A stretch of 64,000 bases of DNA from Olsenella profusa F0195 (GTDB taxonomy: Bacteria; Actinomycetota; Coriobacteriia; Coriobacteriales; Atopobiaceae). Of the stretch, positions 13,650 through 63,229 are shown one piece after another; the first letter of the stretch is position 1, and every line of letters starts with the position of its first letter. The notes beneath the pieces were generated by a model. It was not told the origin of the DNA and made no database searches. It saw only the letters and a list, made by a program, of their open reading frames with translations. Made by a program: the position numbers and the translations under genes. The stretch spans positions 62,001-126,000 of the forward strand of contig NZ_AWEZ01000073.1 of the NCBI RefSeq assembly GCF_000468755.1. Direction: 5' to 3'.

Positions 13650-14366
13650 ATGGCGCATCTGAGCGACTACATCCGACAGAAGGCCTTTGTCCCCAAGGGC
13701 AAGGGTGGCAAGGCCAAGCTCAAGAGGCTTGGCCGCTTGCATATGACGGTGTTCTCACCGAAGGGTGACACGGTGGTGGGATTCCTGATACGGCGTCCCG
13801 ATGTCATGGGCATGGTCAGGCGACCCGACGTGTTCGTGGCGCTTGACAGCCTTTCCAAGGCGGAGGATGGCTTTCAGGTCTCCGACGAGAGGGGGGCCAT
13901 TGATGACACCGCCCGCAGGCGCCTGGGCATCGACTGGGATCGCTGCCTCATGTGGGAGGGCATGGATGCCGTCACCGTGGATGGGGGCACGCTTGGCCAT
14001 GTGAGCGACGCCGAGTTTGACCCTGCCACGGGCAAGGTCTCCCTGTTCTGCGTGGGTGACGGAGGCGTTGCCGAGTCGCTCGTGGGCACCGTGCGCATCC
14101 CCGCGGCACAGGTCAGGGGCTATGGCGACGGCATGATGGTGGTCGCCAACAAGGCTCGGGACCACAGGCCGTCGGGAGGGGTCGCCGGCAAGGCGGGCAC
14201 CGCCTACGCCAAGGCCAAGGCTCAGGGGGCACAGACCGCCAAGAGGGCCGATGATGTGGCCTCACGGGCCGTGGACAAGGGGTCAAAGGCGCTGGGCAGG
14301 CAGCTGGGGAAGACGAAGGGCATGTTTGGGTCGTTCATGGACGAGTACAGGAGGGCAAGTCGCTAG
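13650..14366 (+). CDS. PRC-barrel domain protein
   Basis: 238 residues. The first half contains two short beta-barrel-like repeats of PRC type (GRLHMTVFSPKGDTVVGFLIRRPDV and TVDGGTLGHVSDAEFDPATGKV). The second half is Lys/Ala-rich and likely helical or disordered. PRC-barrels bind RNA, proteins or cofactors; no catalytic residues are expected. It follows the YtxH gene closely. Its 3' end overlaps the convergent ABC exporter gene by 32 bases (14335-14366). A related N-terminal PRC region appears in the MgtE-like protein at 18469-20307. Confidence 0.65.
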   Translation: MAHLSDYIRQKAFVPKGKGGKAKLKRLGRLHMTVFSPKGDTVVGFLIRRPDVMGMVRRPDVFVALDSLSKAEDGFQVSDERGAIDDTARRRLGIDWDRCLMWEGMDAVTVDGGTLGHVSDAEFDPATGKVSLFCVGDGGVAESLVGTVRIPAAQVRGYGDGMMVVANKARDHRPSGGVAGKAGTAYAKAKAQGAQTAKRADDVASRAVDKGSKALGRQLGKTKGMFGSFMDEYRRASR

Positions 14367-15987
14367 GGCCGCACACCTGAAGCCTTCCGCTCTGGAGGGA
14401 CAGTACGGCGTCGTAGCGTCGTGCGTGTGAGCCGTCCAGATGATGCGTGACCGCGATGACGGTCACCCCCTTGAGCGAGAGCAGCACATCCTCTATCTGA
14501 GCGGCGGTCGCCCGATCGAGTGCGGACGTCGCTTCGTCCACGAGGAGCAGTCGCTTGCCATGCAACAAGGCCCGAGCGATGGCCACACGCTGGCGCTCTC
14601 CTCCCGAGAGCCTGGAGCCATTCTCCTGTATGGGGGTGTCGAGTCCCTCTAGGAGTGCGGACACCACACCCTCAAGGCCCGCGAGTCGCACGGCCTTGTC
14701 CACCCGCCCGTCGGGAAAGCTCGCCCCCAGACAGATGTTCTCGCGCAGTGAGTCGTCAAAGAGAAACACGTTCTGATGGATGAAGGCGGCATCCGGTGCC
14801 GTGCCACCCTTGCCGTCAACCAGCACCGTTCCCGAGGATGGGGTGAGCCTGCCCGACAGCAGCCCAAGCATCGTGCTTTTGCCGCAGCCGCTCTGACCGA
14901 TGATGACATACTTCCTTCCTACCTCAAAGCGCATGGAGCAACCGCTGATGACGGTCCGTTCCCCACTCCCATACGAGAAGCTCACGTTGTCCAGCGCGAG
15001 CGACTGCGTGATGCCGCAGCGTACCGCTTGCGGATGTTCGTGCGCCACCTGTTCGAGCTCCCCCATGCCCTCGAGGAGGGGGGAGCAGGCCCTGATCTTT
15101 CCCAGTTTGCCCGACAGCTCGGATGCGGGGGCGATGACGCTTCCGGAGAGCTGCGTCACGGCAATGACGCTACCTATGCTTACCAGACCCCATACGGCGA
15201 AGACGCCCGTGAGGCCCATGATGGCAAACTGCATGATCGTGCCGGTGGCGCTGGCCATGCCGCTGACGCACGCCATGGTCCTCGCCAACCTCGCCTTGTG
15301 CCCTTGCAGCAATCTCGCCTGTCGGTCAATCTTGTCGGTCATGGGGCGCTCCGCGCGAAACGACCACAGCACCTCCCTGCCCTGTGCCGCATCGCGAACG
15401 CAACCGTTGTAGGATTTCGTGCCCCTGATGACCAGGCCCTGGGCATGTGATAGGCGCCCGGCGAAGAGCCGGGGAAGCACGGTTGGCAGGGCCATGCCCA
15501 CCAGGGAGACGCACGCGATGAGAGGGTTGAACCATACGAGGAGGGCGACGCCTATGGCGATCTGGAACAGGGAGTCCACTACGTCAAGCGTGCCCATGAG
15601 CCAGTCATGCTCGAGCGTCTCCATGTTCTGCCCGAGTACTGTGAGCTGCTCCGCACTGTCACGGGCACCTGCGCCGGTTCGTGCCATCATGCCCCGCGCA
15701 CCCGCGCCACGCAGCCCGACCATGACGTCCCTGACGATCGATGCCCTGATCATGCCCGCCGCAAGGCTCATGATGCCCAAACCCAGAGAATAGGCGATGG
15801 AGAAGAGGGTGAGGCTCACAACGGGCGAGAGGTCCCCGCTCGCGAGGGAGGCGGAGACCGTATCGATAAGGGCGCTCAACAGCAGCGCCACGCCCATGAA
15901 CAGGATGGAGAGGATGAGGTCGGCAAGCAGGTAGACGACGAGCTGTGCGGTACGTGCGTAGCTCTTGATCCATGAGATGCCCAGCAT
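14335..15987 (-). CDS. ABC exporter, fused permease and ATPase, probably for the neighbouring peptide
   Basis: About 550 residues in one half-transporter. Residues to about 290 hold six hydrophobic segments of an exporter membrane domain. The ATPase follows with Walker A GQSGCGKST, signature LSGGE, Walker B LLLVDEATSALD and the switch His (VTHH). There is no C39 peptidase domain, so any leader would be cut by another protease. Start: ATG 15987 has GGAGG at 16001-16005, 13 bases away; an in-frame ATG at 16020 has no good site. It is the third gene of a - strand set (regulator, short peptide, exporter) and lies behind a strong hairpin. The exporter family is certain; the peptide substrate is inferred from context. 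Confidence 0.88.
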   Translation of the reverse strand: MLGISWIKSYARTAQLVVYLLADLILSILFMGVALLLSALIDTVSASLASGDLSPVVSLTLFSIAYSLGLGIMSLAAGMIRASIVRDVMVGLRGAGARGMMARTGAGARDSAEQLTVLGQNMETLEHDWLMGTLDVVDSLFQIAIGVALLVWFNPLIACVSLVGMALPTVLPRLFAGRLSHAQGLVIRGTKSYNGCVRDAAQGREVLWSFRAERPMTDKIDRQARLLQGHKARLARTMACVSGMASATGTIMQFAIMGLTGVFAVWGLVSIGSVIAVTQLSGSVIAPASELSGKLGKIRACSPLLEGMGELEQVAHEHPQAVRCGITQSLALDNVSFSYGSGERTVISGCSMRFEVGRKYVIIGQSGCGKSTMLGLLSGRLTPSSGTVLVDGKGGTAPDAAFIHQNVFLFDDSLRENICLGASFPDGRVDKAVRLAGLEGVVSALLEGLDTPIQENGSRLSGGERQRVAIARALLHGKRLLLVDEATSALDRATAAQIEDVLLSLKGVTVIAVTHHLDGSHARRYDAVLSLQSGRLQVCGPSDLPSCTRP

Positions 15988-16032
15988 GATAGGTCTCTTT
16001 CCTCCAAGGTGATGCTCCATGTCGAGGGTGGG

Positions 16033-16070
16033 CCGATGATTGGCAGCATAAGGTTGCTGCCAATCATCGG
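16033..16070 (-). promoter_or_regulatory. 16-bp perfect hairpin between peptide gene and exporter
   Basis: CCGATGATTGGCAGCA (16033-16048) pairs with TGCTGCCAATCATCGG (16055-16070), with a 6-base loop and no T run on either side. It starts 12 bases after the peptide stop codon (- strand). It may partly terminate or stabilise the message, giving more peptide than exporter. Confidence 0.75.
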
Positions 16071-16081
16071 TGCCTGTGGCA

Positions 16082-16153
16082 TCAGTTCCCGACGATGATG
16101 ACCAAACCCGCGTGCACGCGCTGCCTCACGTGTCCCTTCGTCTGACTGCTCAT
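16082..16153 (-). CDS. Short 23-residue peptide, candidate SHP-like pheromone precursor
   Basis: ATG at 16153 is preceded by AAGGAGGTG, among the strongest ribosome-binding sites in the window, with 7-base spacing. The peptide starts MSSQTK, has a basic middle (His, Arg, Arg) and ends in the hydrophobic stretch HAGLVIIVGN before TGA. Streptococcal SHP2/SHP3 pheromones of the Rgg system end in DILIIVGG or DIIIIVGG, so the tail is a close look-alike. Unlike those, the N-terminus is hydrophilic and has no signal-like segment, so export would depend on the ABC gene just downstream. An HTH-TPR regulator gene lies just upstream. The ORF is well supported; its pheromone role is inferred. Confidence 0.7.
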   Translation of the reverse strand: MSSQTKGHVRQRVHAGLVIIVGN

Positions 16154-16279
16154 GTGCCCACCTCCTTCTTGTGTCGGTGAGCACATCATGGCAGGCGGGC
16201 TGACGACACTCCATAACGAAGTGTGTACGTTTCAGCCTACGCAAGATGTTATGTGGTGGTGGGGCCCGAAACCCTGGTC
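16154..16279 (-). promoter_or_regulatory. Probable promoter region of the peptide gene
   Basis: 126 bases separate the regulator stop from the peptide start. I see no good -35/-10 pair, which would fit an activator-dependent promoter. A spaced inverted repeat (CATAAC at 16212-16217, GTTATG at 16248-16253) could be a regulator site. The strong ribosome-binding site is at 16159-16167. Confidence 0.4.
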
Positions 16280-17197
16280 TCAGCTCCCCTGGTGTCGCAT
16301 CCACGCGCGTATGGCATGCGCGTAGTCATGCATCTCGCAGAGGTCGAGGTACGCGGCGACCGTCCTCAGCGTCGATGCCGCCTCTGTCGTGTCGCCGGCA
16401 CGAAACTCCAGCCGGGCAGTCCCGGCAAGGATGAACGGCATGAGGCCCAGCTCATCCTCCTTGATGCTTGTGTCCCTTGCCAGATCAAGATAGGTGCGCG
16501 CCTCCTTCGCCTGTCCGAGCTCCTCAAGGATGTTCGCCAGGTTGACCATGAGGGAGAGGCACAGGACGAGCTGCCTGCCCTCAAGACCTCCCTGGCGCCT
16601 GAGGGCGGCGAGCGTCCTCTCCCCAAGGCGGATGGCGTCCATGGGGCGCCCCGCACCGTGCAGGGCCACGACCATGAGCGACAGCAGCTCTGCCTCTCTC
16701 GACGAGAGCAACCTGACTTCCAGGTCATGCACGTCTATGTCTGGCTGGGAGAGCCTGAGCCCCTGCTCCAGCAGTTCAAGTGCCCTCATGCAGTCCTCTG
16801 GGGAGTCCTGCGACCTGATGAGTGCCGCGGCCTCGAGCTCGAGCACCCTTTGTCGCTCCCCAGGCGACCCCGTCTCCCGTGCCGACGAGCGCAGGTCGCT
16901 CAGCAGGACCCTTCCCCTGTCCGCGTCAAGGTGATTGATGGCGTTCCATGTCGCCTGGCTGAGCCGATCGAAGGCCTGCCGTTTCGCGCTTCCCGCGCTG
17001 CTCTCGAAGAGCTGGTAGCCATCCAGCCCCAAACGGTCCATGAGCGCATCAAGCAGTGCCTTGGAGGGCCGCTGCCTGCCACTCTCTATGCGCGAAATGG
17101 AGACGGGGGAGCAGATCCCCTCCGCAAGCTGTTCCTGCGTGAGACCATGCTCCTTGCGGAGTCTCCGGACCAGGCTGCCAAGCTCATGTTGGCTCAT
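16280..17197 (-). CDS. HTH-TPR transcription regulator, RRNPP (Rgg/PlcR)-like
   Basis: 305 residues. The N-terminus is a Xre-type helix-turn-helix (LRKEHGLTQEQLAEGI...SISRIESGRQRPS, residues about 10-48) in the form used by Rgg and PlcR. The remaining 240 residues are all-helical with tetratricopeptide-like repeats (for example MVNLANILEELGQAKEARTYLDLA), the fold that binds peptide pheromones in RRNPP regulators. Length is close to Rgg (about 280-300). GGGAGG precedes the ATG by 8 bases. It lies 127 bases upstream of the short peptide gene and, beyond that, the ABC exporter, all on the - strand. Peptide control is inferred from fold and context; a non-peptide TPR regulator remains possible. 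Confidence 0.8.
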   Translation of the reverse strand: MSQHELGSLVRRLRKEHGLTQEQLAEGICSPVSISRIESGRQRPSKALLDALMDRLGLDGYQLFESSAGSAKRQAFDRLSQATWNAINHLDADRGRVLLSDLRSSARETGSPGERQRVLELEAAALIRSQDSPEDCMRALELLEQGLRLSQPDIDVHDLEVRLLSSREAELLSLMVVALHGAGRPMDAIRLGERTLAALRRQGGLEGRQLVLCLSLMVNLANILEELGQAKEARTYLDLARDTSIKEDELGLMPFILAGTARLEFRAGDTTEAASTLRTVAAYLDLCEMHDYAHAIRAWMRHQGS

Positions 17198-17231: not shown

Positions 17232-18467
17232 TTAGAATCCCATCGCCTGGAAGGCGAACATCAGCACCGTGAGGATGACGACCGCCACGATGGTAAACCA
17301 GGTGAGTGCGTTCCATATGCGCCCGTTGGCGTGACGCCCCATGATGTGGTGGTCGCTGGCGATGAACACCATGCAGAGCAGCAGAACGGGGAGCAACACG
17401 CCATTGATGACCTGCGAGACCATCATGATGCCAAAGAGGCTGGCACCAGGGATCAGCACGACGGCCGCGCTGGCGACAGTGATGGCCGCAATGGTGCCGT
17501 GGTAGACGGGCGCGTCCCTCCATCCGCTGCCCGCACCGCGCTCCCAGCCAAAGGCCTCGCAGACGGCGCCGGCGGTGATGCCGGGCATGACGCAGGCCGC
17601 CAGGAACGATGCCCCAACGAGCCCTGCGGCGAAGAGGGCGGAGCTGTACTCACCAGCCAAGGGCACGAGCGCCTGGGCGGCATCGGCCGCATCGTTCACC
17701 TGCACGCCCGCGGGGTAGAGCACCGCACCCGTGGTGAGGATGATGAACCAGGTGATGAGCTCGGCAGCGATCACGCCGGTGACGTTGTCGGCGCGCTGGC
17801 CGGGGATGTCGGTCTCGTCCAGGTTCTTCTCCACCACGTTGCTCGCGACCATGAAGATCATGTAGGGCGAGATGGTGGTGCCGGCATTTGCCACGAGCAG
17901 GGAGATGTAACTGGGGTTCGTGGATATCTGTGGCACGAGGGTGTCATGCAGTGCGTCACCCCAATCGGGACCACATATGACGCCGGCGATGACATACGTC
18001 ACGAACACGCAGCTGATGGTCAACAGGATCCGCTCTATGCGGTGGTACGAGCCACTCATGGAGAGCAGCCAGGTGGCAATGGCCGCCACGGGAACCGACA
18101 CCACCACGGGCACGCCGAAGAGCGCCATGCCGCTGGCGATGCCGGCAAACTCCGAGAGCGTGACGGCGAAGTTGGACACGATGAGCGCAAGCATGGCCAC
18201 GGCCGAGATGCGGACGCCAAAGCGCTCCCGGATGAGCGAGGCGAAGCCCTTGCCCGTGGCGCACCCCATGCGGGCGGCCGTCTCCTGTACCACCACGAGC
18301 AGCACGCCCATCACGGGAACGGTCCAGAGCATACCAAAGCCAAACTGCGCTCCGGCCGTCGAGTAGGTTGCGACGCCACCCGCGTCATTGCCCGCGAGTG
18401 CGGTGAGCAGGCCGGGTCCCATGGCGGCCAGGATGGCGAGCGCGCCGGTCCTCCTCTTCGTGGCCAT
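17232..18467 (-). CDS. NRAMP-related transporter of the magnesium (NRMT) type
   Basis: 411 residues with about 11 hydrophobic segments in the NRAMP/SLC11 fold. Classic manganese/iron NRAMPs have DPGN in helix 1 and a Met-containing MPH motif in helix 6. Here helix 1 reads GNDAGGVATY and helix 6 reads GTTISPYMIF, so the sulfur ligand and standard motif are gone. This is what distinguishes the NRAMP-related magnesium transporters described from Eggerthella lenta, also a coriobacterium. The ATG lies one base after the stop codon of the MgtE-like gene, so the two are co-translated. Mg2+ is the likely substrate; Mn2+ is the alternative. Confidence 0.8.
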   Translation of the reverse strand: MATKRRTGALAILAAMGPGLLTALAGNDAGGVATYSTAGAQFGFGMLWTVPVMGVLLVVVQETAARMGCATGKGFASLIRERFGVRISAVAMLALIVSNFAVTLSEFAGIASGMALFGVPVVVSVPVAAIATWLLSMSGSYHRIERILLTISCVFVTYVIAGVICGPDWGDALHDTLVPQISTNPSYISLLVANAGTTISPYMIFMVASNVVEKNLDETDIPGQRADNVTGVIAAELITWFIILTTGAVLYPAGVQVNDAADAAQALVPLAGEYSSALFAAGLVGASFLAACVMPGITAGAVCEAFGWERGAGSGWRDAPVYHGTIAAITVASAAVVLIPGASLFGIMMVSQVINGVLLPVLLLCMVFIASDHHIMGRHANGRIWNALTWFTIVAVVILTVLMFAFQAMGF

Positions 18468-18468
18468 G

Positions 18469-20307
18469 CTATGCGCCCATGCCGTTCATGAGGGCGGACA
18501 CGATGCCAACGAACGCCAGCACGGCTATCGCCATGGCGATAGCCTGTAGCGCGAGACCGGAGGTCTCGCGGCCACGACTCTCCCTGCGTCGCAGCACGAT
18601 GAGGTAGAGGGGGCAAAGCACAAACGAGAGCAGGACGCTCGCGGCCGCCGCTGTGAAGCCGTAGGCTCCCACGCGTGCCACCCGACTGAATGGGCCTGCA
18701 AAGAACGTGCCGAAGATGCCCGTGGAGACGAGGGCGATGAAGGCCGCAAAGAGCAGCCCCAACCCGATGCCCTTGACCGTAAAGCCTGCGACGGAGGGCG
18801 AGTCCTCGTCATCGGGGTCATTCTCGATGAAGAAGTTGGTGACGAAGGTGGCGGAGTCGAGGGCCGCCACGATGGCAGCGGGCATGGCAAAGCCCAGAGC
18901 CATGACCTCGCCGCGCATGCCCGTCCCCAGGAGTGCGGCAAGCAGGGAGAAGCCGATCATCCAGAACAGGAACCACAGTTCGTTGCGGCAGAGCCAGAGG
19001 ATGTCATGGGATCCCTTGCTTCCGTCACTGTCGCCATGTCCCGCGCCGGCGATCTGCAGGTCCTCCTCATGTTCCTCCTCCAGGACGTCGAGCGCGTCGT
19101 CCACGGTGACGATGCCCAGCAGACGATGGGCATCGTCCACAACGGGCATGGCCAGCAGGTTGTACTTGGCGATGTCCTTGGCCACGTCCTCCTGGTCGTC
19201 GTCGGGCCCGGCGGTCACCAGCTCATCGTGGGCGATGGACGAGAGTTGCAGGTCCCCGTCATGCGAGATGAGGTTCCTCAGGCTCACCACGCCGGAGAGG
19301 TGGTCCTCGTCGTCCTTGAGGTAGATGTAGTTGACGGCCTCGAAGTCCTCGTCAAGGCTGCGTATGGCGGCAACGGCATCCGCCACCGTTGCCTGCTCGG
19401 GGAGCGAGACGGCCTCGGAGGTCATGATGCGGCCCGCCGTGTTCTCCCGATAGCCCAGCAGCTGGTTGATGGCCTTGCGCTCCTTGACACCCATCAGGCG
19501 CAGGAGCTTCTCGGCCTTGTCGTAGTCAAGCTCGCTCACGAGCTCCGCGGCGTCATCGGGGTCCATCTCGGAGAGCAGGCGCGAGGCGGCGTCCTCGTTC
19601 ATGTCGTCCATGAGCTCCGCCGCCATGGAGTCATCGGCGAGCTCGGCGATGGCGTCGGCCGCCTGCTCCTCATCGAGCTGGGCAAACACCTGGCCACGCA
19701 GGCGCGGGTCAAGCTTCTCGATGATGTCGGCGATGTCAGCGGGATGCAGCTCGTCGAGCGTCTTGTGCGACACGGAGAGCTTCACGTTGGAGAGGTCACG
19801 GTCGATGAGGTCCATGTAGTTCCATGCGATGATGCGTTCGGGAATGGCCCTGCCGAGGGACCTGGCGAGGCGGAGCACGAGACGCTCCAGTGCGGGTGAG
19901 AGGGAGCGCAGCAGGCCGCGGATGCCCACCTCGGCACCAAGGAGACGCAGCTGGTTGGCGTTGGTGTCCGAGAGCTTGAGGTCGTTCACGCGCACCACGC
20001 GCGCGCCGCGCGTGTCCACGATCTGCTTGTTGAGCAGGTCGCGGGCCACAAGCACCTCGTCGGGTTGCAGATAGCTGAAGCGAATGTCCGTGGAGACCAC
20101 CTTGAGGTGAATCTCGCTCTCGTCAAAGGAGTCGACGTACTTGCGCCAGCTGATCATGAACGGCGTGCGACCCGGACCCTCGACGGCAAGGGAGGTGATG
20201 CGGGGGAAGACCTCACCCGTGGCGATGCCCAGGTCATTGACTCTGCCGATGCGCTCGCCCTTGGCGTCGAGCACCGGGTTTCCTACGAGCTGTGAAAGGT
20301 AGATCAT
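18469..20307 (-). CDS. MgtE-like protein: PRC-barrels, MgtE N-domain, CBS pair and atypical membrane domain
   Basis: 612 residues from ATG 20307, chosen for AAAGGAG just upstream. Residues about 1-140 contain two PRC-barrel-like units (GERIGRVNDLGI, GARVVRVNDLKL). An MgtE_N helical domain (LDELHPADIADIIEKLD, LSEMDPDDAAELVSELD) and a CBS pair follow; in MgtE these sense cytosolic Mg2+. The C-terminal 150 residues have about five hydrophobic segments but lack the GNAGxQ-type pore motif of MgtE channels. It may act as the Mg2+-sensing partner of the NRAMP-like protein encoded one base downstream rather than as a channel. This role is inference. Confidence 0.8.
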   Translation of the reverse strand: MIYLSQLVGNPVLDAKGERIGRVNDLGIATGEVFPRITSLAVEGPGRTPFMISWRKYVDSFDESEIHLKVVSTDIRFSYLQPDEVLVARDLLNKQIVDTRGARVVRVNDLKLSDTNANQLRLLGAEVGIRGLLRSLSPALERLVLRLARSLGRAIPERIIAWNYMDLIDRDLSNVKLSVSHKTLDELHPADIADIIEKLDPRLRGQVFAQLDEEQAADAIAELADDSMAAELMDDMNEDAASRLLSEMDPDDAAELVSELDYDKAEKLLRLMGVKERKAINQLLGYRENTAGRIMTSEAVSLPEQATVADAVAAIRSLDEDFEAVNYIYLKDDEDHLSGVVSLRNLISHDGDLQLSSIAHDELVTAGPDDDQEDVAKDIAKYNLLAMPVVDDAHRLLGIVTVDDALDVLEEEHEEDLQIAGAGHGDSDGSKGSHDILWLCRNELWFLFWMIGFSLLAALLGTGMRGEVMALGFAMPAAIVAALDSATFVTNFFIENDPDDEDSPSVAGFTVKGIGLGLLFAAFIALVSTGIFGTFFAGPFSRVARVGAYGFTAAAASVLLSFVLCPLYLIVLRRRESRGRETSGLALQAIAMAIAVLAFVGIVSALMNGMGA

Positions 20308-20518
20308 GCAGGCTCCTTTGTGGGCCGGGCGCGTGTCATGGGCATGGCGCGCCGCATTCACCGGGCGTACCCCGCGGTGAGGCCGACAAAGGAAGGCGCG
20401 TCACCGCGGGGTCATCGACTGTGAGGTCGGGGTTTCATCGATGACCTTTCTCCTTGGCTGCAGGGGGAGGTGACGTAGCCTTTCAGGCATGCGCCATGCC
20501 CCAACGGAAGATTGTACA
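20308..20518 (-). promoter_or_regulatory. Structured 5' leader of the magnesium transport operon
   Basis: On the - strand TGTACAAT (-10 TACAAT at about 20513-20518) would start a leader of about 200 bases. It holds two consecutive long hairpins: TCGATGACC/GGTCATCGA (20438-20446 with 20410-20418, 9 bp) and CCCCGCGGTGA/TCACCGCGGGG (20370-20380 with 20401-20411, 11 bp). The two touch at 20410-20411. A metal-responsive riboswitch or attenuator is plausible by position. I do not recognise the M-box consensus. Confidence 0.45.
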
Positions 20519-61693: not shown

Positions 61694-63229
61694 CTATCTT
61701 GTACGCAGGCGAAGGAGCATGTACTGACGGGAGGGGAGGTCAACGCGGACATGCCCCTCGAAGCTGCCAGGCAGCGTCTCGAACGTCATGTTCCAGGTGT
61801 CGATGACGTCGATGCTGTAATTCTTGCCTTCGGGCAGGTCGAACTCACGATAGGAGGGACGGAAGAATCCGAAGTAAATGACCACGTCGTCATCACCACC
61901 TCCGCGCTCGTTTGCCATGCAGGTGATGTCCCAGGTGAAGGTTCCCAGCAGGATGCCCCGCTCGTCAGGCACCGTGTCCATGTCCTCACCGAGCGATTCC
62001 ATGAATGAGCGGCAGAAGCCGATGCGGGCGGGGGAGTCCCCGTACAGTCTTCCGCCGTGCGCCCACCAGATCTTGGGGCCCCGGTCCACGAAGGTCTCGC
62101 CATGGCTGAGATAGCCGCCACGCAGGCAGCCTTCCCAGAAACGCCTGGTCATCTCCTGGCCGGTGAGGTTACCCCAGCCCCAGTTGATGTTGCCCTCATA
62201 GGCGCACTCATCGACCACAACGGGCTTGCCGTATTGGGCGCGCAGCTCGCTTACGCATTCCGCCGTGCGCTGGAGGTCACAGCGTTGCCAGCTCACATGG
62301 GTGATCCAAGGGTGGGAGTGGTCAAAGATGGTGCGACAGTTGTGAATGGAGCGCAGGTGCCCATAGGGGTCATTGTCCATGATGATACGGGCGTACTGGT
62401 CCCAGTCCTCTACGGACTTCCATGGTAGGAGGTCGAACTCGTTGGCGAGGCTCCACCAGACGTTCTTGTAGGCCGCATAGCGCCGCGTCACGTAGGTGAG
62501 GTAGAAGGCATCCTCCTCCTTGCTCATGCGCGAGAAGCCCCATTCGGGTTTGTCGTAGGGGTGCAGCAGGATGATGTCCGCCTGGATACCTAGTTCGTCG
62601 AGCTGCGCCAGCCGGTGGTCGAGGTTCTCCCAGAACGGCTCATAGAAGCGCGTGCGATCGAAGCCCCTGCCCGCGGCCCCAGGGAAGGCGTACATGGCGG
62701 GGTCGTCGTGGTTGTAGTCGTAGTACTTGGGGAAGATGCACATGCGCACCTTGTTGAAAGGGCTGGCAGCGAGGGTCTCGACGGTCTGCTCCTGTACCTC
62801 GGGCTCTTGGTTCGTCCAGGCGTAGCAGGTGGTTCCGAAGGGCAGGAAGCTGGTGCCATCCTCGTAGCAGAACTTGAAGTCGTTGCTGGTGTCAAAGACG
62901 GTCTGTGTTGTGCGCACGTCCTTCGCCCTGAGCACGCGACCATGGTTGCCTGGCCTTGCGGCGCTCACCTCGAGGGTGCCCTTAAGGCCATCGAGGGTCC
63001 TATCGGAACTGCTGGTGATATAGGACCAGCTGCCTGCACTGCGCGGCATGAAGCGTATGCCGTAGCGCCCGTCTCCGCGGTAGAAGCCGCGCACGGACAC
63101 GCTGTCGCCGTTGTCCTTGCGTCTAAACGTCGCATCAAGGCGCACGTCCTGGTATGGGTTGCCCATGCTCGTCCCGGCGAGCGCAAGATCGAATACTTTG
63201 TACTGCTCGATGGTTTTCGTTGTGTTCAT
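61694..63229 (-). CDS. Glycoside hydrolase-like protein with DUF5060 and DUF4038 domains
   Basis: 511 residues, no signal peptide. Residues 1-95 are a DUF5060-type beta domain (DVRLDATFRRKDNGDSVSVRGFYRGDGRYGIRFMPRSAGSW). Residues about 110-420 are a TIM barrel of DUF4038 type (FLPFGTTCYAWTNQ, NKVRMCIFPKYYDYN), with possible catalytic acids in WWSLANEFDLL and VVVDECAYEG. A small beta domain ends it. DUF4038 is also the core of GH140 apiosidases, but this one is a different arrangement and the substrate is unknown. It is the middle of an operon MFS transporter / this enzyme / GH78 / ROK kinase. Confidence 0.75.
   Translation of the reverse strand: MNTTKTIEQYKVFDLALAGTSMGNPYQDVRLDATFRRKDNGDSVSVRGFYRGDGRYGIRFMPRSAGSWSYITSSSDRTLDGLKGTLEVSAARPGNHGRVLRAKDVRTTQTVFDTSNDFKFCYEDGTSFLPFGTTCYAWTNQEPEVQEQTVETLAASPFNKVRMCIFPKYYDYNHDDPAMYAFPGAAGRGFDRTRFYEPFWENLDHRLAQLDELGIQADIILLHPYDKPEWGFSRMSKEEDAFYLTYVTRRYAAYKNVWWSLANEFDLLPWKSVEDWDQYARIIMDNDPYGHLRSIHNCRTIFDHSHPWITHVSWQRCDLQRTAECVSELRAQYGKPVVVDECAYEGNINWGWGNLTGQEMTRRFWEGCLRGGYLSHGETFVDRGPKIWWAHGGRLYGDSPARIGFCRSFMESLGEDMDTVPDERGILLGTFTWDITCMANERGGGDDDVVIYFGFFRPSYREFDLPEGKNYSIDVIDTWNMTFETLPGSFEGHVRVDLPSRQYMLLRLRTR

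Follow-up and report, generated by a model that had tools for sequence, protein, structure and literature searches.

In Firmicutes, RRNPP peptide signalling is one of the main schemes of cytoplasmic quorum sensing. Two of its systems, PlcR–PapR of the Bacillus cereus group and Rgg–SHP (short hydrophobic peptide) of streptococci, are the closest described counterparts of the locus analysed here, i.e. a regulator gene, a very short peptide gene and an exporter gene in the coriobacterium Olsenella profusa F0195. PapR is made with a Sec signal peptide and is not known to have a tandem exporter of its own, and SHPs have a basic and hydrophobic N-terminal part with an Asp or Glu before the tail. An earlier note on this DNA gave the ends of SHP2 and SHP3 as DILIIVGG and DIIIIVGG, which agrees with a published correction notice (this notice and the papers cited below by PubMed Central accession are drawn on in excerpt). 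SHPs use PptAB (PMC5167397). In the rtg locus of pneumococcus, an Rgg-type regulator and RtgS, a peptide resembling the SHPs, occur with a linked transporter for peptides, which contains a peptidase and is named for double-glycine peptides (PMC13361665), and the leaderless communication peptide that acts with RopB is, as its name says, called leaderless (PMC10518010). The RRNPP analysis of PMC10075063 covered Firmicutes and viruses, and the matches listed in a search of the open-licence literature include no RRNPP circuit in Coriobacteriia or another actinobacterium.

The window, i.e. the whole stretch analysed, comprises 64,000 nucleotides (positions 62,001 to 126,000 of contig NZ_AWEZ01000073.1; G000:C73:62001-126000) of a genome of 2.7 Mb in 73 contigs with ~65% G+C. 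On its minus strand lie, in this order, an NRAMP gene (17232-18467), a regulator with helix-turn-helix (HTH) and tetratricopeptide repeat (TPR) domains, a 23-codon open reading frame (ORF) and an ATP-binding cassette (ABC) exporter. The last three (14335-17197) are all present in the order that the earlier note had reported, as are the very strong ribosome-binding site of the 23-residue peptide and its tail GLVIIVGN. We consider it likely, with a probability of roughly 0.65, that they form a self-contained RRNPP-type peptide-sensing cassette of receptor, peptide and own exporter. In such a circuit, the regulator would bind a box upstream of the peptide–exporter promoter, the adjacent ABC transporter would export the peptide, and the peptide, probably trimmed to its β-branched C-terminal part, would be re-imported by an oligopeptide permease (Opp) and bind the TPR groove, switching the promoter on (or off). 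Two OppA-type (SBP_bac_5) proteins are encoded in the genome; M50 proteases are also present, though the peptide offers them no obvious membrane segment for cleavage. The most economical account appears to be a self-regulating peptide-sensing loop in which the peptide leaves through the cassette's own exporter and returns via Opp.

Comparison with described systems

The window regulator has its best fold and profile matches in PlcR. The two share similar HTH segments (ICSPVSISRIESG vs ICHQSEVSRIESG), the model contains five TPR-like helix pairs, and an Asn appears to align with PlcR residue 201. By contrast, identity in the fold alignments is only 19% (14–15% for Rgg2), the host phylum presumably differs, and the window peptide, by inspection, has no hydrophobic N-terminal segment. 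With Rgg–SHP the locus shares a short peptide with an IIVG-type tail beside an HTH–TPR regulator, and Rgg2 is among the top folds. Unlike in the SHPs, no hydrophobic N-terminal stretch and no Asp or Glu before the tail are seen on inspection (the peptide is mostly hydrophilic up to residue 15 and contains no D or E), the regulator has no Rgg_C match at E ≤ 1, and the genes stand in tandem with an exporter of their own. The departures from the streptococcal arrangement that the earlier note had listed, namely tandem order, own exporter and hydrophilic N-terminus, are thus evident on inspection, and the link to SHP in particular is weak. The rtg locus resembles the window in linking a transporter to an Rgg-type regulator and an SHP-like peptide, but no peptidase domain was found in the window exporter; the leaderless peptide of RopB differs from the window peptide, whose N-terminal part is hydrophilic and which is linked to an exporter. 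In brief, the cassette seems RRNPP-like in most structural respects, lies outside the curated subfamily models and is apparently co-transcribed with its own exporter.

Regulator fold and candidate peptide-binding residue

The regulator matches the Pfam models HTH_31, HTH_3 and TPR_12, i.e. an N-terminal Xre-type HTH followed by a C-terminal TPR part. Its single-sequence AlphaFold2 (AF2) model has a mean pLDDT (predicted local distance difference test) of 81.6 and a pTM (predicted template modelling score) of 0.65. A Foldseek search with this model returned PlcR (3u3w, E 2e-8) at the top; ranks 1–16 are all PlcR, ComR or Rgg2 chains (some being repeat chains of one entry) with alignments of 301–329 columns that take in HTH and TPR together, and rank 17 is LGN. 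The first three rows of VIA-align are PlcR structures: 2qfc (Z 19.7, 281 residues, root mean square deviation (rmsd) 8.2), 3u3w (Z 19.1, 276 residues, rmsd 4.8) and 4fsc (Z 18.6). Searches of the PDB with regulator profiles again found PlcR best (6e-15 with alignment A3, 2e-14 with A1), mostly via the HTH, with Rgg2, ComR and RapF as weaker matches below it. By predicted fold and sequence profile, PlcR is the closest solved relative. The Rgg/PlcR layout assigned in the earlier note agrees with these domains and with the predicted fold.

Residue N219, in model helix 207-226, is invariant in alignment A3 (7/7). It aligns with PlcR residue 201 in a low-scoring stretch of the printed alignment, a position assigned by sequence only, and with RapF residue 227 if an equally low-scoring, equal-length stretch (58:58) is read as ungapped. 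RapF Asn227 has been called strictly conserved in the RNPP superfamily, and its replacement (N227A) impairs peptide binding (PMC3601957); ComR N208 bonds the peptide backbone (PMC5131891). Terms for a peptide-binding Asn were not found in PMC6568020 and PMC4970707. Predicted fold, HTH sequence and aligned Asn together support an RRNPP-like receptor.

Related loci

Genomes were sampled at the class, family and phylum ranks around the genome of the window; the samples overlap and count that genome itself. The regulator was found in 6/150 relatives at E ≤ 1e-10 and, at E ≤ 1e-20, in 8/396 class genomes, 8/140 family genomes, 1/65 genomes of a second family of the order and 1/296 genomes of the phylum draw, the last being the genome of the window. 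Excluding weaker, HTH-only matches, it occurs in nine genomes at 15 places: three each in G000 (the window's genome) and G272 (same species), two each in G002 and G352, and one each in G027, G071, G031, G068 and G314.

Intact regulator and exporter genes stand side by side at seven loci (the window, L067, L069, L071, whose exporter frame was checked to be intact, L045, L046 and L048). These amount to about five independent loci, two of them peptide-less, as L045 and L046 are near-copies. The other places are L013, L068 and L070 (decayed, with a peptide), L047 (where an unrelated peptide and exporter come after the regulator), L049 (broken), L050 (a single regulator with insertions) and the HTH remnants L051 and L072.

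Peptide gene and its counterparts

The earlier note looked to relatives for a recurrence of the peptide, and this is borne out in part: a short peptide with a β-branched tail occupies the same slot beside the regulator at seven loci (five distinct peptides, two families), but it is missing from three of the seven intact loci. The window peptide is MSSQTKGHVRQRVHAGLVIIVGN and that of L067 MSSQMKGHVRQRVHAGLVVIIVGN; the second copies in the same species (L013 and L068) encode MAKQ[P/S]GHLMRRGNGDVVITVVL, L069 encodes MRGQAEHLSGQVNSGWVIIIIKH, L070 (GTG)MQRQIERQVRHSNGGVSIKIEITIG, and L071, from another family, MISIEIKINIGH, or 18 residues if an upstream ATG is used. All seven have a V-, I- or T-rich stretch near the end and all but L071 have Q at position 4, while the tail sequence itself differs strongly from locus to locus. 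Between G000 and G272 the peptide tail differs by three bases, the sole gap in 6 kb (with 34 mismatches), which is weak evidence for coding because a GTC repeat lies there.

One explanation is that the small ORF is a fortuitous reading frame in an intergenic gap, in line with its length of only 23 codons and with the three related loci that do without it. We find this hardly credible. A background filter set after the peptides had been seen (Shine-Dalgarno, ORF of 18–28 residues, β-branched tail) passed three unrelated ORFs in 271,756 strand-bases, i.e. ~0.003 expected per 250 nt, against same-slot ORFs at four distinct loci (window/L067, L013/L068, L069 and L070) plus the peptide of L071, which fails the filter; a wider filter (10–40 residues) yields more unrelated matches. 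The Shine-Dalgarno is strong and keeps a constant distance to the leader motif, which also argues against chance. The peptide ORF exceeds chance expectation.

The peptide is present at four of the seven intact loci (window, L067, L069 and L071) and at three decayed ones. At L045, L046 and L048 a leader of the same kind precedes the exporter ATG, which occupies the position of the peptide ATG, and the 10–11 kb around each locus yielded no such peptide. Pheromone-less systems have also been discussed for classical RRNPPA (PMC9765709).

Exporter and intergenic hairpin

Pfam detects ABC_membrane and ABC_tran and no peptidase domain in the exporter, as the earlier note had described it. Inspection shows an upstream ATG at 16020 without a Shine-Dalgarno and an ATG at 15987 (MLGISW...) preceded by GGAGG, and the start was taken as 15987. 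With ten candidates scored per genome, the matches listed include close exporter homologues (E ≤ 1e-80) in 6/140 family genomes at eight places, every one of which is a regulator locus. Co-occurrence of the exporter with the regulator is supported by these counts.

A hairpin is predicted between peptide and exporter, with fold z (vs mononucleotide shuffles) of -5.6 in the window, -5.5 in L067 and -5.8 in L070; it is also predicted in L013 (z -1.95) and L069 (-1.6), within the shuffle range, and is not predicted in L071 (z 0.7). This hairpin may set the peptide:exporter ratio. Alternatively, the small ORF could be a leader peptide that controls the exporter by attenuation, the exporter then handling another substrate. 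The ORF does precede the exporter, hairpins are predicted on both sides of it, and ribosome-stalling leaders can contain hydrophobic stretches. Yet the intergenic hairpin of the window lacks a T-run and a scan revealed no terminator-like site, the tail varies strongly between loci, and at loci without the peptide the exporter directly follows the same leader. We regard attenuation as quite improbable.

Leader, putative promoter and translation

Ten leaders align (A4). They share an upstream box and TATGG, with ATGAT 21 nt later in nine of the ten; L071 has AAGAT at 22 nt. The start codon ends 64–66 nt past the start of the TATGG hexamer in nine leaders and 76 nt past it in L071, and the spacing is the same whether the start codon belongs to peptide or exporter. 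From these spacings we assign TGG... as a putative weak -35 and (N)ATGAT as a putative -10, 17 bp apart. A sigma-70 consensus scan did not report this pair; the only promoter-like pair that it found lies inside the intergenic hairpin. TATGG itself could be read as a -10, which would keep the hairpin in the normal mRNA; this was less favoured because ATGAT stands at a fixed 21 nt.

A secondary mechanism may act on translation: mRNA reading in from the regulator gene would fold and bury the Shine-Dalgarno or start codon, while mRNA from the cassette's own promoter would lack the 5' arm and be translated. The spacer between the putative promoter elements was analysed in seven leaders, L067, L068 and L046 being excluded as near-copies of the window, L013 and L045. 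When the fold is stopped at the start codon, all seven distinct leaders show pairing of the spacer with the Shine-Dalgarno (mean probability 0.66–1.00), and without the spacer arm the Shine-Dalgarno is 57–97% free. Against spacer shuffles, the single p-values are 0.004, 0.001, 0.027, 0.012, 0.001, 0.063 and 0.38 (Fisher 5e-8), to be read with the facts that the shuffles preserve base content only, that the leaders are related and that the values are uncorrected for a pairing noticed beforehand. Reruns with 0, 12, 30 and 60 coding bases gave Fisher p of 2e-7, 4e-5, 1e-6 and 8e-8; the pairing of L069 was 0.45 at 12 bases and 1.0 at 30 and 60.

Two results of these reruns speak against such a lock: the pairing in the window falls from 0.66 to 0.08, 0.01 and 0.00 with 12, 30 and 60 coding bases, and L071 exceeds the shuffles in no setting. 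Hairpin-energy p-values are 0.86 for the window, 0.001 for L013, 0.011 for L045, 0.001 for L048, 0.006 for L069, 0.68 for L070 and 0.04 for L071, and spacer helix length is significant in 3/7 leaders. In 75-nt folds, the start region of the window, L067, L045 and L069 pairs elsewhere than with the spacer. In the longer fold of the window, GTGCTCACC, which immediately follows ATGAT, is paired with GGTGGGCAC in the start region, and a promoter-initiated mRNA would also largely lack this post-ATGAT stretch. These predicted folds support a read-through lock for L013, L048 and L069, support it fairly for L045 and L070, and leave it uncertain in the window.

The folds bear on a more specific and tentative idea, that of a mobile, self-contained Coriobacteriia cassette outside the known RRNPP subfamilies in which the -35/-10 DNA (in the window, the stretch around the -10) doubles as antisense to the ribosome site. 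We had put its odds a little below even and lowered them, because the window's spacer pairing is lost in the longer fold, to a level at which it must be called rather unlikely. If it were true, signal and exporter would be made only from the pheromone-responsive promoter and never by read-through from the receptor gene, and loci that lost the peptide and kept the other two genes would act as eavesdroppers or serve immunity only.

The motif YGWTATGG-N21-ATGAT has 13 matches in the nine genomes, nine at cassette loci, as expected because the motif was drawn from them, and four elsewhere; none occurs in G314, G031 or G068, and a reversed control pattern had no match. Three of the four off-cassette matches were inspected: one lies within a reading frame, which we take to be an aspartyl-tRNA synthetase gene, and two have no fitting gene start. 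The fourth is identical, letter for letter, in the sister genome. A wider regulon was considered and set aside, the four matches being taken as chance.

Decay and possible mobility

Second cassette copies of the same species lie at L013:5000-7460 (G000:C29) and L068:3640-6110 (G272); their regulator and exporter are truncated, but an open peptide frame and the leader are present. In G001 and G003 (same genus), the NRAMP gene is followed 87 and ~220 bases on by a PRC-barrel gene, the one that flanks the cassette in the window, with no regulator or exporter match between the two; the corresponding gap in G002 is 0.8 kb, also without such a match. Regulator copies, several of them broken, adjoin a gene that we take, from its sequence, to be TypA-like in L047, L049 and L070, and the remnants L051/L072 apparently do so too (judged from an antisense frame only), as if this neighbourhood were an older home of the cassette.

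The peptide-less cassettes L045 and L046 are near-identical despite belonging to two genera. An integrase-core gene (Pfam rve, L045:2037-3161; rve was scanned in L045) comes after the cassette in L045, and a closely similar frame (L046:7913-9241) in L046. Near-identity across genera together with the integrase-core gene suggests transfer of this cassette.

Downstream of the intact regulator of L047 in G002, a 35-residue precursor that resembles those of ribosomally synthesized and post-translationally modified peptides (RiPPs) is encoded with a strong ribosome site (MSDIKREEWDPIPIELDDMTGVDEMFSICGVNCGG, L047:3619-3726, minus strand), with an unrelated ABC transporter some way further on.

No regulator match was found on plasmids. 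Among phages, two unannotated records match; one of these (MT837704.1, 4373-5209; Bacteriophage sp., human faeces) encodes a distant relative that aligns over 94% of the regulator with 24% identity (E 2e-10). In viral contigs, the regulator profile reached one HTH-only locus, and the exporter gave 136 pattern matches with zero confirmed relatives. A single profile scan of genome contigs gave 31 loci that match at most about the first 100 regulator residues and were not used as evidence. Weak regulator matches also occur in a Thermoleophilia, a Blautia and an Enterococcus genome (best E 7e-12).

Weighing of the probable sensing cassette and its main rival

Several observations weigh against a peptide-sensing cassette. 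(i) In VIA-align, the eukaryotic TPR protein LGN reaches Z 18.5, by the rule of that method a tie with two PlcR rows out of three; receptor identity could thus not be decided from the TPR part by itself. Unrelated HTH proteins and designed proteins rank between PlcR and the other RRNPP receptors in the PDB profile searches, and an eighth, aberrant regulator (L050) has another residue at the N219 position. (ii) No curated RRNPP model (RNPP_C, Rgg_C and NCBIfam models named for Rgg/PlcR) passed for the window regulator at E ≤ 1, and across the seven members RNPP_C and Rgg_C each match one weakly (E 0.0019 and 0.016). Since such models are built on known members, we read this as membership of no known subfamily, not as absence of an RRNPP receptor. 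(iii) The hallmarks of the known pheromones are missing from the window peptide, both the Sec signal peptide of PapR (by inspection) and those of the SHPs. (iv) The peptide is absent between regulator and exporter at 3/7 intact loci (L045, L046 and L048); the earlier note had named just this loss as evidence against a pheromone, and it does not apply to the window, L067, L069 and L071. (v) Several further cassette copies have decayed. (vi) Between G000 and G272, of one species, the exporter has 11 amino-acid-changing vs 6 silent codon differences; the regulator has one of each, and the NRAMP gene three silent and one changing. (vii) The exact promoter motif has no convincing further target in the nine genomes, so that the circuit seems to act on nothing beyond the cassette, its output perhaps being the peptide.

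With the peptide as a possible output, the main rival explanation takes it for an effector, i.e. a small secreted antimicrobial or interfering peptide that the ABC transporter exports and immunizes against, while the regulator senses it and adjusts its production. The loci that keep regulator and exporter without peptide (L045, L046 and L048) would then be immunity-only remnants; the patchy distribution with decayed copies and the lack of convincing further promoter targets fit as well, and the peptide–exporter hairpin (window, L067, L013, L069 and L070) could give a high peptide:transporter ratio. However, the neighbours examined include no RiPP or bacteriocin modification enzyme and no immunity gene, no peptidase domain was found in the exporter, the peptide is of very small size with a tail like those of known pheromones, and a plain bacteriocin needs no RRNPP-like receptor. 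We consider an effector unlikely, and the peptide-sensing cassette remains our preferred reading.

Features and neighbourhood of the locus

Coordinates are collected in Table 1. The neighbouring proteins scanned were NRAMP, MgtE, PRC-barrel, YtxH, LemA and cyanophycin-synthase-like proteins; an MgtE-type protein at 18469-20361 of the window carries an N-terminal PRC-barrel domain.

Table 1. Features of the candidate peptide-sensing cassette, in coordinates of the window
Feature	Position	Strand	Basis
HTH–TPR regulator, putative peptide receptor, 305 aa	16280..17197	-	Pfam, AF2 model, Foldseek
Peptide gene, 23 aa, MSSQTKGHVRQRVHAGLVIIVGN	16082..16153	-	Same-slot peptides in L067, L013, L068, L069, L070, L071
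Shine-Dalgarno of peptide, AAGGAGG	16161..16167	-	Sequence
ABC exporter, 550 aa, without peptidase domain	14335..15987	-	Pfam; close homologues beside regulators
Hairpin between peptide and exporter, perfect, 16 pairs, without T-run	16033..16070	-	Fold z -5.6
Upstream box, conserved, ends in TATGG; putative regulator-binding site	16211..16245	-	Leader alignment A4
Putative -35, TGGAGT, 17 bp from putative -10	16208..16213	-	Leader-shared spacing
Putative -10, CATGAT	16185..16190	-	ATGAT spacing in aligned leaders
Promoter-spacer stretch predicted to be able to pair with Shine-Dalgarno	16190..16200	-	Window: seen only if the fold includes no bases past the start codon

Implications

A working circuit of this kind in a coriobacterium would, if true, extend the RRNPP scheme to another phylum. 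It would also provide small, testable peptides for coriobacteria and perhaps a promoter that also locks the translation of stray transcripts.

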